From NCBI GenBank assembly GCA_029820295.1, contig JALGVA010000036.1:1-54717 (forward strand): a stretch of 54,717 nucleotides of DNA, given 5' to 3'. Within the stretch, counting starts at the first letter, position 1. The number at the start of each line of letters is the position of its first letter. Below, piece after piece: positions 7,886 to 16,900 of the stretch. The notes under the pieces are model-generated. The model saw only the letters and a program-made list of their open reading frames with translations, made no database searches and was not told the origin of the DNA. The translations under genes were made by a program, and so were the position numbers. Source of the DNA: Candidatus Zipacnadia bacterium (GTDB lineage: Bacteria; Armatimonadota; Zipacnadia; Zipacnadales; UBA5352).

Positions 7886-8703
7886 ATGAGCTACGCACAG
7901 CGTCGGAGACTGAGCAGCGTGACCGGACGGCGAGACGGCGTTGCCTCAAGCATGGTTATCATTGCGCTGACCGCGCTGGTGGGCATGCTGGCGCTTACGG
8001 TCGATGTGGCGACGCTGCATCTTGCGCGCCAGCAGCTTCAGAACGCGGCCGACGTTGCGGCCCTGGCGGGCGCGGCCGAGCTGCGCCACAGCGCCGATGC
8101 CGCTGCCGTGGCCGCCGAGGCCATGGCCACGGCCAACGCCAACGTCGTACTGGGGCAGCAGCAGATCATGCTGGAACCTGATGACGTCCAGATCGGCTAC
8201 GAGGCCGAGGATGGGACGTGGGTGACCGGCTGGCCGACGGTAGGACTGCCGTCGGTGCGCGTGACCGCCCGGCGCACCGCGTCCTCGGCGGGCGGACCGG
8301 TGAAGATGACCTTCGCGCGCCTGTTCGGCATCGAGAGCGTGGACGTCAGCGCCAGCGCGACCGCGCAGGTCTCAGGCGGGCAGACCGGGCGCGCACCGGT
8401 GGAGATCGCCATGTCATCGTCCTGGTCAGCGACGGCATGCCCAACGGCAGTGCGCAGTACGCCTGGGACGCAACACTGCGCCGCTGCGTGCTGGTGCGCA
8501 CCGCCGAAGACGTCACCGCCGACCTGCGCGACGCCGCCATCGAGGCCGCCGATGCGGCCGCCGCGGCAGGGATCACCATCCACACGGTCACCTTCATCCA
8601 GGACGACGCCGGCGGCGATGCTGAGCCAAATGCCTCCCTCGCGCGTAACGGGGGATTCGCGTTCCACACGCCGGAGCCAGAGGATCTGGCGAGCATTCTT
8701 TAA
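7886..8703 (+). pseudogene. TadG-like protein with von Willebrand A domain, frame-disrupted
   Basis: The first frame (7886 to about 8411) encodes a Tad-type N-terminus (membrane helix SMVIIALTALVGMLALTVDVA, then the TadG/Flp signature ARQQLQNAADVAALAGA) and leads up to RAPVEIA, where a vWA domain should begin. From about 8412 the sequence matches the second half of a vWA domain in another frame (HVIVLVSDGMPNGS to the stop at 8703). The DxSxS metal site and the central strands are missing. A deletion of a length not divisible by three has joined the two halves. This is either a real inactivating deletion or an assembly error in this window. Confidence 0.7.
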
Positions 8704-8773
8704 ACGGTGGGACACATCGAGGTGGGGCACCCGATCCTGGTCGACTGGCGCGGGGTCGCCCAAGCCGGTGCAC

Positions 8774-8813
8774 GACAAGGGGGCGATGTTGCGGCCATCG
8801 TGCCCCTGTTGTC
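8774..8813. terminator. Hairpin between convergent TadG-like and methyltransferase genes
   Basis: An interrupted stem (GACAA, GGGG and CGATG against CATCG, CCCC and TTGTC, with small bulges) around a 7-base loop overlaps the end of the methyltransferase gene. It is probably a bidirectional terminator. Confidence 0.5.
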
Positions 8814-9600
8814 ATTCCAGGACGACGTACTGCACGCTGCTGCCGCTGCCGGACACGATCTCGGCAACGGGCGGCTCGGTGGCCCGGGCGCCGGCGCGCT
8901 GCTTGACCACCACGCGGCGGCGGGCCACGCGCCGCGCCTCCTCGAAGGCCTTCGCCGGGATGGGCCGATGCACGCCCAGACGCCGCAACGGTTGCATGGC
9001 CTGCGAATCGTTCACGGGCTCGTGGAAGAACGGGTCGAAGTAGACCACGTCGAAGCTGTCATCCGCGAGCGCCGGCAGCACCTCCACGCAGTCCCCCTGC
9101 ATGGCATCAATGCGCCGCATGGCCTCCTGCACGCCCGCGCCCTCGATCTCGTAGCTGGCGAGCCCCTCGATGGTGAGCGCCGCGATCAGCGGATCGGCCT
9201 CGTAGCCGACCACGCGCCCCCCTGCGCCGACTACCCACGCGGCCACGATGGCATCGCTGGCGCGCCCGAGCGTGCAGTCGAGGACGCTGTCGCCGGGCTG
9301 CAGAGCCATCGCGGTGACCATCGGGTCGCCCTTGCCGTCGCGCAGGTTGCTGATACGCGTGCGCGCCATGCTCGGGTGGTAGAAGTACTCGACGCCCTCG
9401 GCGGGGATCACCAGTCCGACGCGCACCGGGGTGACCGTCAGCCCGGCCTCGACACCCTCCTCACGGCAGAGCCTGGACAGGCTGCGATCCGCACGCGCCA
9501 CGAAACGCACGCCCAGCCGCTCAGCCCACCGGCGTGCGCGTGCGACCAACTCGGGATCACTGCGGCGCGAGGTCGTGACAACGTAGGAGAGATCAGGCAT
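8812..9600 (-). CDS. RsmJ/YpiP-like class I SAM-dependent methyltransferase
   Basis: A 262-residue protein. Motif I of class I methyltransferases appears as SVLDCTLGRASDAIVAA near residue 105, an acidic SAM-binding residue ends the next strand (VVGYEAD), and the catalytic-type motif VYFDPFFHEP sits near residue 189. The N-terminal region with TVTPVRVGL and FYHPSMARTRI, and DPFF in place of DPMFP, place it near the DUF548 family, in which RsmJ methylates G1516 of 16S rRNA. The exact target is not proven. Its ATG overlaps the stop of a possible upstream micro-ORF (ATGCCTGA). Confidence 0.75.
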   Translation of the reverse strand: MPDLSYVVTTSRRSDPELVARARRWAERLGVRFVARADRSLSRLCREEGVEAGLTVTPVRVGLVIPAEGVEYFYHPSMARTRISNLRDGKGDPMVTAMALQPGDSVLDCTLGRASDAIVAAWVVGAGGRVVGYEADPLIAALTIEGLASYEIEGAGVQEAMRRIDAMQGDCVEVLPALADDSFDVVYFDPFFHEPVNDSQAMQPLRRLGVHRPIPAKAFEEARRVARRRVVVKQRAGARATEPPVAEIVSGSGSSVQYVVLE

Positions 9601-12683: not shown

Positions 12684-12713
12684 TTGACGCAACACGTGCC
12701 GGTTTGCTACGCT
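12684..12713 (+). promoter_or_regulatory. Promoter of the first fluoride-riboswitch transcript
   Basis: TTGACG (12684-12689) and TACGCT (12708-12713) are separated by 18 bases, placing the transcription start just before the aptamer. Confidence 0.6.
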
Positions 12714-12719
12714 TCACCT

Positions 12720-12827
12720 GGCGATGGAGTTCGCCGGGGCGAGCCGGAGTGCTCGCTGCAACCATCGGGCGCAGCTCGCGCCGATTGATGACTCCTGCCC
12801 GGACCAGTGGCAGGAGTCTCTGTGTGT
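12720..12827 (+). promoter_or_regulatory. Fluoride riboswitch 1 with terminator
   Basis: The aptamer has the crcB-motif elements: GGCGATGGAGTTCGCC at the 5' end, an inserted variable hairpin, GCAACC, then CCGATTGATGACTCCTGCC at the 3' end. The GACTCC that completes the aptamer is also the left arm of a 10-bp terminator (GACTCCTGCC at 12790-12799 with GGCAGGAGTC at 12809-12818) followed by TCTGTGTGT. Fluoride binding would stabilise the aptamer and block the terminator, so the gene is switched on. It precedes an unrecognised gene, not a known fluoride exporter. Confidence 0.9.
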
Positions 12828-12862
12828 ACGCCCCCTGCCTGTGGATGGATGGGAGGTCCGCT

Positions 12863-13342
12863 GTGCAACAGGATGGTGCAGAGCGCGAAGGCCTCAATCG
12901 GCTGCTTGCCGGCCAGCGGCGGCGGCACATCGTCGCCCGGTACATGACGGCGCGACGCTGGGCCGATGCTTTCGAGCGTGCCGTGGTGAGCGGCGTGTCA
13001 CCGACCGGCTACGGGCCCCCGTTGACTCCACTGGCACCGGACGTCGCGCAGGGGTTACTCGAGCCCGTGGCCGCGATCATCGAGCGCCTTCGCGCCTTCG
13101 CAGCCGAGCAGGCGCCGGCCGAACTCTCCGCGGCTGAGGCCCCCCGATCAGAGCGGCATACCGTCCTATGGGCGCGGAACCTGCTCGAACGCCTTGCCGA
13201 GGCCGTCGAAGGGCCGGCGCACCAGGCGAGCGCGCGGGCCGAGGTGAAGGGACTACGGGAGGGCGCGCAATGCCTTGCCGACGATGTGCGCCCCCTGATC
13301 GCGCGGGCACGCACTGCGCTGGCGGCCCTGGAGGACCGGTAG
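12863..13342 (+). CDS. Unrecognised helical protein under a fluoride riboswitch
   Basis: This 159-residue soluble protein has no signal peptide or membrane helix. It is rich in Ala, Arg, Glu and Leu, and looks all-helical (segments such as LLEPVAAIIERLRAFAAEQ and LLERLAEAVEG), with a Gly/Pro loop SPTGYGPPLTPLAPD near the middle. There is one Cys and no motif I can tie to a family. The GTG at 12863 has GGGAGG 6 bases upstream; an ATG at 12845 is in frame but lies before the Shine-Dalgarno. Control by a fluoride riboswitch and the adjacent crcB suggest a job in fluoride tolerance. Direct channel activity is unlikely for a soluble protein; sensing, protection of a fluoride-sensitive enzyme, or a regulatory role are open possibilities. 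Confidence 0.7.
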   Translation: MQQDGAEREGLNRLLAGQRRRHIVARYMTARRWADAFERAVVSGVSPTGYGPPLTPLAPDVAQGLLEPVAAIIERLRAFAAEQAPAELSAAEAPRSERHTVLWARNLLERLAEAVEGPAHQASARAEVKGLREGAQCLADDVRPLIARARTALAALEDR

Positions 13343-13413
13343 GCGCGGAGGCGTCCTCGCGCGCGTGAACTCCGGCGGTATGCGGGCGCCCCCGGCTCAC
13401 GCACCGGCGGCGC

Positions 13414-13442
13414 TTGACGCGCCGGGGCCGCTCTGCTATCAT
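13414..13442 (+). promoter_or_regulatory. Promoter of the crcB transcript
   Basis: TTGACG (13414-13419) and TATCAT (13437-13442) are exactly 17 bases apart, just before the second fluoride aptamer. Confidence 0.8.
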
Positions 13443-13452
13443 CGCCGGCGTT

Positions 13453-13556
13453 GGCGATGGAGTTCGCCTGAGCGGGCACGAGTGCCCGCCGCAACCATCG
13501 GACGCGTGTCGCGCCGATTGATGACTCCTGCCTGAGATCGGCGGCAGGGGTCCTTC
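13453..13556 (+). promoter_or_regulatory. Fluoride riboswitch 2 (crcB leader) with terminator
   Basis: Same layout and nearly the same sequence as the first copy: GGCGATGGAGTTCGCC, a GGGCAC/GTGCCC insert hairpin, GCAACCATCGG, CGCCGATTGATGACTCCTGCC, then a terminator with arms GACTCCTGCC (13523-13532) and GGCAGGGGTC (13543-13552) followed by CTTCT. Its place directly before crcB confirms the identification. Confidence 0.95.
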
Positions 13557-13608
13557 TATGTACCTCCCCATGGCTCGCCGCACCCGCACGTCTACAGGAG
13601 TGACGCGC

Positions 13609-13980
13609 GTGTATAGACTGGTCGCCATCGCCCTGGGCGGCGCCGTGGGCGCCATACTCAGGGCCTCCGCATGCAGCCTTACCGAACGGCACTTCGGCCC
13701 GGGCTTCCCCATCGGCACCCTGCTGGTCAACGTCACCGGCGGCTTTCTCGTCGGCCTGATCGCGGGCGCGGGCGCGCAGATGAACCTGTCGCCACTGGCG
13801 CGCGAGGCCATCGTCGTCGGCGGCCTCGGCGCGCTGACCACCTTCTCCGCGTTCTCCCTGGACACGCTCTCGCTGGCGGGTTCCTCGGGCCTGCTGCAGG
13901 CGGTCGGCAACATCGCAGCCAACGTTGTGCTGGCGCTGCTCGCGACCGTCGGCGGCGTGCTGATCGGCCGGGCGCTCTAG
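13609..13980 (+). CDS. crcB: Fluoride ion channel CrcB/Fluc
   Basis: A 123-residue protein with four membrane helices and the Fluc signatures GTLLVNVTGGFLVG (pore Asn region) and GGLGALTTFSAFSLD (TTFSxF with the pore Phe residues). Fluc proteins form dual-topology dimers that let fluoride leave the cytoplasm. The GTG at 13609 has AGGAG 8 bases upstream; an ATG at 13558 lies inside the riboswitch terminator tail and is rejected. Only one crcB copy is present, consistent with a homodimer. Its TAG stop overlaps the stop of the convergent DUF4962 gene. Confidence 0.95.
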   Translation: MYRLVAIALGGAVGAILRASACSLTERHFGPGFPIGTLLVNVTGGFLVGLIAGAGAQMNLSPLAREAIVVGGLGALTTFSAFSLDTLSLAGSSGLLQAVGNIAANVVLALLATVGGVLIGRAL

Positions 13981-16900
13981 CCGCCGTGGTGCACAAACGC
14001 CTCCGGGTCCACCACGATCGTCGCCCCGGGCGCGGCCGCTGATGCCGGGTCGAAGCAGATCACGTCCTCGCCCACGCGCACCGTACGGTCATCGATGCGC
14101 TCGATGACCGGGATTTCGCCACCGGGGGGCTGCGGATAGATCACCGCGAGGAAGCCCCACTGCGCGAGGGGCTCGCGCGTGCTCACCCACAGGTTGTGTC
14201 CCTCGATGATGTCGCCTCTGAGTTGGGCGCGGTAGTCCTCGCCGGTGATCGGGTTCGTCCGTCCCTCCAGGCCCTGCCGGTCATCGAGCACCAGCGCATC
14301 GGGCCGGAAGATATGCTGCAGGCGCACCGCCACGTCGCCCACCGTGTAGTCGATGGCGAAGCGCTCCGCGTCGAAGCTCAGCGGATCGTCGGGCAGGATG
14401 TGCCACAGCCAGGTGAAGGTCGCGGGCTCCGAACAGCGCAGATCGTCGTAGATGACGAAGTAGTGCTCGCGCACGAACAGCACGTGACGAATGTAGCTCT
14501 CGAGGTAGGGGAGAGCGCGTTGCGTGTAGACCTCGTGCAGCGGCAGGCTCCAGCGGCTGAAGTTCCCCGGCTCGTGCGGATAGCACAGCGTCGGGTCGGC
14601 GGCGAAATACACGAAGTCATCGCCCGGCGGCAGCTCGCCACGCGCGTAGCCGGCAATATGGCCGTATGTCGGATAGCGCATTCCGCTTCCCGGCTGCGCC
14701 TGCCCGAGGCCGTCGATGAGCACCACGTTGTGGCTCATGGTGTGGTAGGCGTAGGCGTCACCGTTGGCAGAGGTGCCGCCCCCGTGGTTGATCATCTGGC
14801 CGTAGGCGTGGAGCTGCACCGAGCCGTCGGAGTTGAACGAGTGTGAGTAGCCGCCGCGCGGCCGGCACTGCAGGATGACGCCCGTGCCCTCCAGGTAGGT
14901 CGCGGGGTCGCTGGGCGGCCCGCTGGCGGCCATGGCCCAGCCGCCGATGTCGAAGACCTCGACCGAATCGCTCTCGGGGACGGGCGCGGGCTCGTCGTAG
15001 TAGGCGGGCAGCGCGTACTCGATCCACGGCCGCCACGTGCCCGCAAGCTCGCCGCCGTAGCTCTGCCAGTTGTACAGGAATCGACCGTCGCCGGTCAGAT
15101 AGGCGAGCTTGCGGAAGGCCGCCAGGTGATTGCCGCGCGAGGCGTTGGCCTGGTTGCCCCAGGCGTGATGGTTCATGCCCACCGGGATGATCCGGCGCAG
15201 CCAGCTCCCCAGCCGCGAGTAGAACGGGTTGCGACCCAGGTCCGCGTCGGGCAGCGCGGTGTCGAAATAGAGCGACGCGTTGGTCAGCCACTTGTTCTTG
15301 GAGGAGCCGTAGCCCGCCCCCTCGTTCCACTGCTCGTCGAAGCCGTAGCCGCAGGTGACGCCGATGAGGTAGTTGAGCATCAATTCGAACCACTCGCGAC
15401 CGATGGCGGAGTGCTCGTAGAGCACCAACCCACACACCGCGGTGTCCATGCTCGCCTCGAACTGGTGGCTGGAGATCATCCCCGACAGCGAGGTCCCGCG
15501 CACCGGGGCCGTCGTCATCGCCTCATCGGTGCGGTACCAGCCGCGCACATAGTAGGTGCCCGGCTCGTCGATGGTCAGCGTCTGCTGCCACGAACCGCGA
15601 TCGCTGGCGTCCGGGCAGACGATGCCGACCGCGCCGGTGCCTTCGCGCCCGCCGGCGGCCTCGTAGCCCGGTTCGGACTCGGTGCGGTAGCGGTTGAAGC
15701 GCCAGCCCGCGGGCGCCTCGCCCTCGGCGGCGGAGAAGTCGGCGTTCGCCAGCAGGTTCGGGCTGTCGGGAGTGCGGCTGAGCGACAGTGAGTCCCACCA
15801 CACCTCGCCGCCGGCATAGTAGTTGAACAGTTCAACCGTGAGCGCCGTGCCCTGTTCGGGGGCGTGCACCTCCCAGGTGAAGGGCGTCCACTCGGCGGCG
15901 CGCCCCAGCCGCAGGCGCTGGTCACCGGCGACATCCACCCGCACCCGGTCGATGCGCACGCCCACCTCGCTGGGCGTGATGGTGATGGTGTGCTCGCCCG
16001 CGGCCTCGACCACCACGGTCACGGACGCCTCGCCCCAGTCGGCCACAAAGGTGCGCTGCGGCCGGTCGCCGTCCAGCGTCACGAAGAACGCGTCCCTGTC
16101 GCCCGCCGGGCCGTGGGCGGCGACCTCCACCACGTACTGCCCGCGATCGAGCGGCAGCGTCAGGGCGATGGCGGCGTCCTCGCCCGCCAGCTCGACCAGC
16201 CGGCCGCCGGAGGCGCGCTCGTCATCGACCACGCGCACGGCACCCGACAGCGCCAGCGCCTCGGCCTCGAAGGTCGCCGCCTCGCGGTCGGTGCGGAAGG
16301 TCATGCGCACCATTGGCCCGCTCGAACGCCCGGCGCGCCAGGCGAAGTTGTTCATGACGTGATCGACGCGCCACTCCAGCGACTGGATCATCACCTGCCG
16401 CTGCGCGTCGGTCATGTCCTGGTAGAGCCAGTCGAAGAGCAGCGCCAGGAACTCGTTGCCCTGGGTGGCGTCCTCAGCGCCGTCGCCGCCCAGGCCCTCC
16501 GGCGAAGCGCGGCCTCCCGGCGGATAGCTCGCCCAGGTCACCGCGCGCTCGACCACGCCGGCGTAGCGCTCATCGCCGGTGAGCTTCCAGACGAAGGCCA
16601 CGGTCGCGAGGTCCTCGGCGATGCGGTAGAAGTCGCGCTGGGGCTCGTCGCCGCGGTCGCTCTGCGGGAAGTCGGCCCACCACGGCTGCTCGATGATGCC
16701 GTCGGCCAGGCGCTGCATGCGCGCGAAGGCGGCCCGCGAGCCCGGATCGGTCTGCGCCAGCGCGCGCAGCTCGGCCATCTTCTCCGAGCGCAGCAGCACG
16801 CGCGGATGGCCCATGGCCGCGAGGTCGGGCTCGGCCAGCGCCGTGCGGTCCCACACGGTCGCGCCATCGGCGATGGTGAACGCGCGCGTTGCGCTCCACT

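Follow-up and report, generated by a model that had tools for sequence, protein, structure and literature searches.

A family of helical proteins associated with fluoride riboswitches in Armatimonadota and its possible link with dynamin-like GTPases

Two fluoride riboswitches follow each other in the genome of a Candidatus Zipacnadia bacterium. The second one precedes crcB, and the first one precedes a gene whose product resembles no fluoride-response protein. Does this gene belong to the fluoride response, and what might its product do there? The window (the whole stretch of DNA that was analysed, 54,717 nucleotides of genome G000) contains the following features, all on the + strand:

12684 to 12713, + strand: probable promoter of leader 1 (TTGACG, 18 nt, TACGCT), assigned by eye, with a weak -10
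12711 to 12804, + strand: fluoride riboswitch aptamer 1, full length (RF01734, 39.4 bits, E 1.7e-7)
12790 to 12818, + strand: terminator-like hairpin GACTCCTGCC/GGCAGGAGTC formed with the 3' end of aptamer 1 (dG -21.6 kcal/mol, z -3.3), with a weak T tract
12851 to 12856, + strand: Shine-Dalgarno-like GGGAGG in the sequence, 6 nt before the GTG start
12863 to 13342, + strand: gene of the 159-residue helical protein, an open reading frame with a GTG start at 12863, purifying selection, homologues in 49 genomes and a model pLDDT of 94.9
13414 to 13442, + strand: promoter-like site of the crcB leader (TTGACG, 17 nt, TATCAT, extended -10), from a consensus scan
13444 to 13537, + strand: fluoride riboswitch aptamer 2, full length (RF01734, 38.5 bits, E 3.5e-7)
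13523 to 13552, + strand: terminator-like hairpin of leader 2 (dG -18.7, z -2.2), with a weak T tract
13609 to 13980, + strand: crcB, fluoride channel (Fluc), from the CrcB NCBIfam models and PF02537 (73.9 bits)

The two leaders and the congener

In the fluoride riboswitch class, the binding of fluoride and Mg to the aptamer favours transcription of the downstream gene. Both aptamers of the window retain GGCGAUGGAGUUCGCC, AACC and UGAUGACUCCU as intact core elements. The initial annotation had proposed a complete fluoride aptamer and an overlapping terminator before the first gene, followed by crcB behind a near-identical riboswitch of its own. The RF01734 search bears out the complete aptamer, which is above the Rfam gathering score of 34 bits, and the CrcB models together with the match of aptamer 2 do the same for crcB and its own switch. 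The other two elements stand only in part. Each hairpin does overlap the 3' strand of its aptamer; both are followed by poor T tracts, however, and the consensus scan called no intrinsic terminator in either leader, so that they are likely but unproven terminators. The near identity of the riboswitches is limited to the aptamer core, whereas the leaders with their promoter region are 74% identical over 191 aligned bases, so that, on this comparison alone, they seem to stem from an old duplication instead of being near-identical. The probable promoter of leader 1 aligns with the promoter-like site of leader 2 and is not called by the consensus scan. The GTG start of crcB, located behind AGGAG, was also picked by eye.

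The locus was compared with that of a congener (G001), whose flanking regions are syntenic and about 85% identical to the window. The congener keeps leader 1 and the helical-protein gene; leader 2 and crcB are missing at the same syntenic place (window 13343-13990 versus contig 721, L074), and no CrcB was found anywhere in this genome, which is 86% complete. In G001, no gene other than that of the helical protein was found behind a fluoride switch. Since this leader and gene are kept without crcB in a genome with no full-length dynamin either, neither CrcB nor dynamin seems necessary for the helical protein to be of use in the lineage of the window. In the window genome itself, neither a full-length dynamin nor DUF6062 nor DUF190 was detected. 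The known extent of its fluoride regulon is the helical-protein gene and crcB; one CLC gene is located elsewhere without a riboswitch. The DNA identity to the congener decreases to about 64-67% within the helical-protein gene (window 12901-13340 versus L074), against about 85% in the flanks, which could reflect fast evolution or gene replacement.

The helical protein and its family in Armatimonadota

The frame of 159 residues given by the initial annotation runs from the GTG at 12863 to a stop ending at 13342, with the Shine-Dalgarno-like site in front, and it was retained. The protein of the congener is 60% identical, and the nucleotide changes between the two genes are concentrated at third codon positions (dN 0.31, dS 1.48, dN/dS about 0.21); judged by this substitution pattern, the open reading frame is real and under purifying selection. 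The structure computed with AlphaFold from 34 family members (pLDDT 94.9) contains helices at residues 3-43, 59-83, 85-92, 97-124 and 129-158 and no strand. The model of a second member is similar (pLDDT 95.9). The pTM of the models is of about 0.73-0.74, which leaves the packing of the helices less certain than the local structure. That the protein is soluble and all-helical, as had been proposed, is thus a confident prediction.

The protein had also been placed outside the known fluoride-response families, and the profile and structure searches agree. No Pfam or NCBIfam family was matched at E values up to 10, which covers CrcB/Fluc, CLC-F, enolase, pyrophosphatase, Usp, DUF190 and DUF1706. 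The PDB gave no match to the window protein by sequence, and none by fold with the models of two members (Foldseek; best E values of 5.4 and 2.9). From the alignment of the family, we observe that the conserved residues are the G, P and L of an SPTG-x-G-x-x-LTPL loop, the T and W of a T-x-x-W motif in helix 3 and an RYG motif after helix 3. The window protein carries the loop motif at residues 46-57 (SPTGYGPPLTPL) and the helix motif at T100 and W103, and the RYG motif is replaced in it and in the congener. No catalytic-looking polar set was seen among the conserved residues of 28-34 aligned members.

The family profile and, independently, RF01734 were run over the same 291 Armatimonadota genomes. 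The profile recovered 46 standalone homologue loci, divided among 23 families, and three fused genes; RF01734 recovered 112 fluoride riboswitches in 88 genomes. That homologues in other genomes would also follow fluoride riboswitches had been set beforehand as a test, and it was passed: 31 of the 46 standalone homologues (15 of the 23 families) have a same-strand riboswitch no more than 6 kb upstream, against about 0.05 expected by chance, and for none of the 46 is one found on the opposite strand. The number expected by chance was simply estimated from the density of riboswitches, shared ancestry is accounted for only by counting families, and contigs of metagenome-assembled genomes are often short. 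At the level of genomes, the switch is present in 28 of the 35 that contain the gene versus 60 of the 256 that do not (Fisher P 1e-10). Nine genomes have the switch directly before the gene (G000, G001, G002, G004, G010, G090, G113, G231 and G252); at the other linked loci, DUF6062 or further operon genes lie in between. Twelve more distant members were reported only with a second profile, and eight of them are linked (G042, G045, G118, G231, G269, G270, G277 and G278). This result is only a partial out-of-sample check, because three of the eight (G231, G269 and G278) were added to the second profile after they had been seen in riboswitch operons; the other five were not. No upstream riboswitch was found for 15 of the 46 homologues. 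Contig ends cut some of these loci (G008, G077), and permissive Rfam searches detected no riboswitch near ten of the 15; the loci of G019, G023, G035, G041, G081 and G111 remain without a nearby switch even under such lenient thresholds.

Beyond this set of genomes, a scan of GTDB contigs with the single window sequence found no relative, and a scan based on the alignment found seven, all Armatimonadota, from WS1 or Zipacnadia. The plasmid records gave no match to the family with tblastn. As the thorough search covered one phylum only, the occurrence of the family outside Armatimonadota is untested rather than excluded. The member of G004 (L076:1821-2183) is short, with 121 residues and an odd C-terminus, perhaps by a frameshift or an assembly error.

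CrcB, enolase, Usp and Na+/H+ exchangers are established fluoride genes. With this linkage, and with such genes in the operons, the proposal of a new fluoride-response protein is supported, and there is very little doubt in our view that the window gene is a fluoride-regulon member belonging to an Armatimonadota family of soluble all-helical proteins of about 150 residues. This assignment is comparative, its induction by fluoride being unmeasured. The sensing role that had been suggested as an alternative finds no support beyond the riboswitch itself, and the role inferred here is that of an effector or adaptor.

Operon partners and the dynamin-like GTPases

Pfam scans and labelling by homology show that the riboswitch operons draw on a common module: DUF6062, the helical family, a CPA-type Na+/H+ exchanger, Usp and a dynamin-like GTPase, to which are added DUF190, CrcB, enolase, a cytidylate-kinase-like protein (Cytidylate_kin2) and an MFS-like transporter, the latter named from its sequence without a Pfam scan. 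The operon of G241 (L158) contains on one strand the riboswitch, DUF6062, the helical-protein gene, the antiporter, Usp, the dynamin and the MFS-like gene. Of the 46 loci, 20 have DUF6062 and nine have a full-length dynamin within 6 kb on the same strand. DUF6062 is present in one to three copies per fluoride operon and displays two repeats of an invariant CxxC...GxC..H (L103:4453-5079, L079:5787-6401, L093, L153, L155, L161). On the strength of these repeats, it probably acts in the fluoride response as a protein with two zinc-binding units.

The exporters are less constant. Among 32 genomes screened for it, almost all of them with a member of the helical family, 22 lack crcB. Of the 23 screened genomes that possess the helical-protein gene together with a fluoride switch, G000, G019 and G023 being excluded, 13 yielded neither CrcB nor CLC. 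The 13 genomes are G008, G010, G017, G028, G045, G048, G231, G236, G241, G252, G269, G278 and G002. The riboswitch-controlled CPA-type antiporter, found in many of these 13, may be their fluoride exporter. The third fluoride riboswitch of G113 (L046, G113:C48) precedes a gene that was read from its sequence as a NuoH/hydrogenase-like membrane subunit.

A domain of the helical family is fused to the C-terminus of a dynamin in G019, G023 and G026. These three proteins have 750-760 residues: residues 597-740 approximately match the helical family, and residues 20-590 approximately share 35-41% identity with the standalone dynamins that riboswitches control in G008, G017 and G028. The size of the fusion is the sum of a standalone dynamin (about 600 residues) and a helical protein (about 150 residues). 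None of the three fused genes is behind a riboswitch. G019 and G023 (L080, L081) contain, in addition to the fusion, a second standalone copy without a riboswitch and in a non-fluoride context. The possibility that the helical domain is homologous to a part of the dynamin itself was rejected (hhalign probability of 0.2%).

By sequence, a riboswitch-controlled operon dynamin matches the Nostoc BDLP (2j68), the Campylobacter DLP pair (5owv) and IniA (6j72). Among the strongest 52 Dynamin_N loci, 16 have a riboswitch on the same strand at most 5 kb upstream, 12 of them within 1 kb. Dynamin-like GTPases located directly behind fluoride riboswitches were observed at L111 (G008), L148 (G278), L149 (G116), L150 (G269), L151 (G264), L152 (G066), L153 (G231) and L096 (G113), and several lineages with such a locus have no helical protein next door. 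In the literature searched, no paper joins a fluoride riboswitch with a dynamin or with DUF6062, a search that did not cover the full published list of fluoride-riboswitch genes. Riboswitch-controlled dynamins are apparently unreported and arguably represent a larger finding than the helical protein. The links with dynamin and DUF6062 lay outside the initial annotation and are the more surprising part.

Because the same domain is fused to its C-terminus, the dynamin is our proposed partner of the helical protein. It is not an obligatory one, since no full-length dynamin is present in G000, G001, G002, G004 and G010, which all have the gene directly behind the switch. The contigs of G000 gave no PF00350 match, and the window protein has no GTPase domain and carries the accessory domain only. 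The dynamin link is the best clue to the mechanism and an incomplete answer, given that the helical protein appears useful without dynamin in the lineage of the window.

The role of the helical protein

The invariant residues of the family are Gly, Pro and Leu (loop, RYG turn), without a catalytic-looking set, and we therefore infer a non-enzymatic adaptor or scaffold, an inference that falls slightly short of even confidence. A partnership with the dynamin where both occur is somewhat more tentative. In the proposed mechanism, fluoride would bind the aptamer and the helical-protein gene would be switched on; the protein, neither an enzyme nor a transporter, would then assist in the assembly or control of partner proteins, which shield the cell envelope and the metabolism from fluoride (HF) stress. 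The partner would be the fluoride-induced dynamin-like GTPase in lineages that possess one. In the organism of the window, where no dynamin was detected, the protein might have another partner or act alone, alongside CrcB. Taken as a whole, this explanation (a new fluoride-regulon family of helical adaptors, with dynamin as partner where present) has in our estimation an even chance of being correct.

Two other roles have to be weighed. The protein could act like a chaperone or protector for a partner, either a fluoride-sensitive enzyme or an exporter (enolase, pyrophosphatase, CrcB or the CPA antiporter). Its gene overlaps crcB by 4 nt in G004, despite the shortened member, and in G112, it adjoins the antiporter in the f13 family and in G278, and it lies next to enolase operons in G089. 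However, none of these neighbours is constant: the crcB gene is missing from the 22 genomes mentioned above, and enolase and the antiporter belong to some operons only, which leaves this role unlikely without removing it. The protein could also serve inside the cell as a buffer or a second sensor by binding a ligand itself, either fluoride, a metal fluoride (MgF, AlF) or a divalent cation. Riboswitch control is compatible with such a function, the near-invariant Gly/Pro/Ser/Thr loop could hold an anion, and the protein may suffice alone, because its gene is the only riboswitch-controlled one found in G001. The 28-34 aligned members nevertheless display no conserved acidic, His or Cys cluster, their invariant residues being G, P and L, and we consider such binding quite improbable.

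The DUF1706/DinB-like proteins are small and helical, and their fold is already known near fluoride genes. A diverged DinB/DUF1706 (DfsB-like) four-helix protein would have a similar length, and two members of the family gave sub-threshold DinB_2 matches (E values of 2e-4 and 0.1). These weak matches are overruled by hhalign, which gives a probability of 13% over 47 columns against the armatimonad DinB_2, and by Foldseek, where no DinB structure is among the matches of the two confident models; the invariant DinB histidines are also lacking. With no significant profile or fold match, this kinship is disfavoured and very improbable. Finally, leader 1 lies only 0.65 kb from the crcB leader and the hairpins are imperfect terminators, so the frame might be imagined as a spurious or unrelated bystander between two leaders that both serve crcB, a reading that is hardly credible for a conserved protein whose purifying selection and homologues rule out a spurious frame, whose linkage to riboswitches is repeated across 15 families, in most cases with no crcB in the vicinity, and whose leader and gene are kept without crcB in G001.

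The adaptor reading can be extended to the operons. As far as is known, fluoride is tolerated by export through CrcB or CLC-F, by substituting the enzymes that it inhibits and by general stress proteins. We propose, as a possibility that is on balance doubtful, that Armatimonadota possess a fluoride-induced membrane-remodelling system in which the riboswitch-controlled dynamin, the helical adaptor (separate or fused) and DUF6062 as putative zinc-binding partner guard or repair the membrane against HF. HF reaches the cell interior through the membrane and lowers the pH of the cytoplasm (PMC11139923), and surveillance of the membrane is among the roles of bacterial dynamins (PMC8844932); a membrane-protection module induced by fluoride is for these reasons plausible, and it is untested. 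A 2024 review lists exporters, antiporters, glycolytic enzymes and membrane changes among the responses to fluoride (PMC11139923). That a riboswitch controls a conserved family with no recognised relatives and with ties to a GTPase that remodels membranes suggests a defence or rebuilding of the membrane itself when fluoride is present. If true, membrane protection or repair would be a route to fluoride tolerance distinct from export and enzyme replacement.

The locus of the window resembles the known fluoride riboswitch regulons (crcB motif RNA, RF01734) by the same aptamer, the hairpin over its 3' end and crcB next door, and the operons of the relatives hold the usual enolase, Usp, antiporter and DUF190. 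It differs from them by a controlled gene whose family is absent from Pfam and NCBIfam, and the operons of its relatives differ by the partners DUF6062 and dynamin-like GTPase, which are not mentioned alongside fluoride riboswitches in the literature searched. The fluoride-resistance operon of Enterobacter cloacae FRM contains ppaC, uspA, eno, gpmA, crcB and orf5249 (PMC5533749). It is likewise a multi-gene unit driven by a riboswitch that combines an exporter, Usp and fluoride-sensitive enzymes; no relative of the helical protein, DUF6062 or dynamin is named in the description consulted (PMC5533749).

To our knowledge, the physiological triggers of bacterial dynamins are mostly unknown, and the Armatimonadota operons offer a clean handle on them, with the trigger written in the leader. 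Several known bacterial dynamins respond to envelope stress or drugs, as DynA (PMC8844932) and IniA (PMC6715688), and none was found under a fluoride riboswitch in the literature. Unlike the known ones, the Armatimonadota dynamin is fused to a distinct helical domain, or shares an operon with it, and profile comparison shows no relation between the two.

Elsewhere in the window, the frames at 7886-9043 and 8218-8703 display a TadG-like N-terminus and a VWA-like segment that continues in the other frame, and they may represent a Tad-pilus-type gene with a frameshift.
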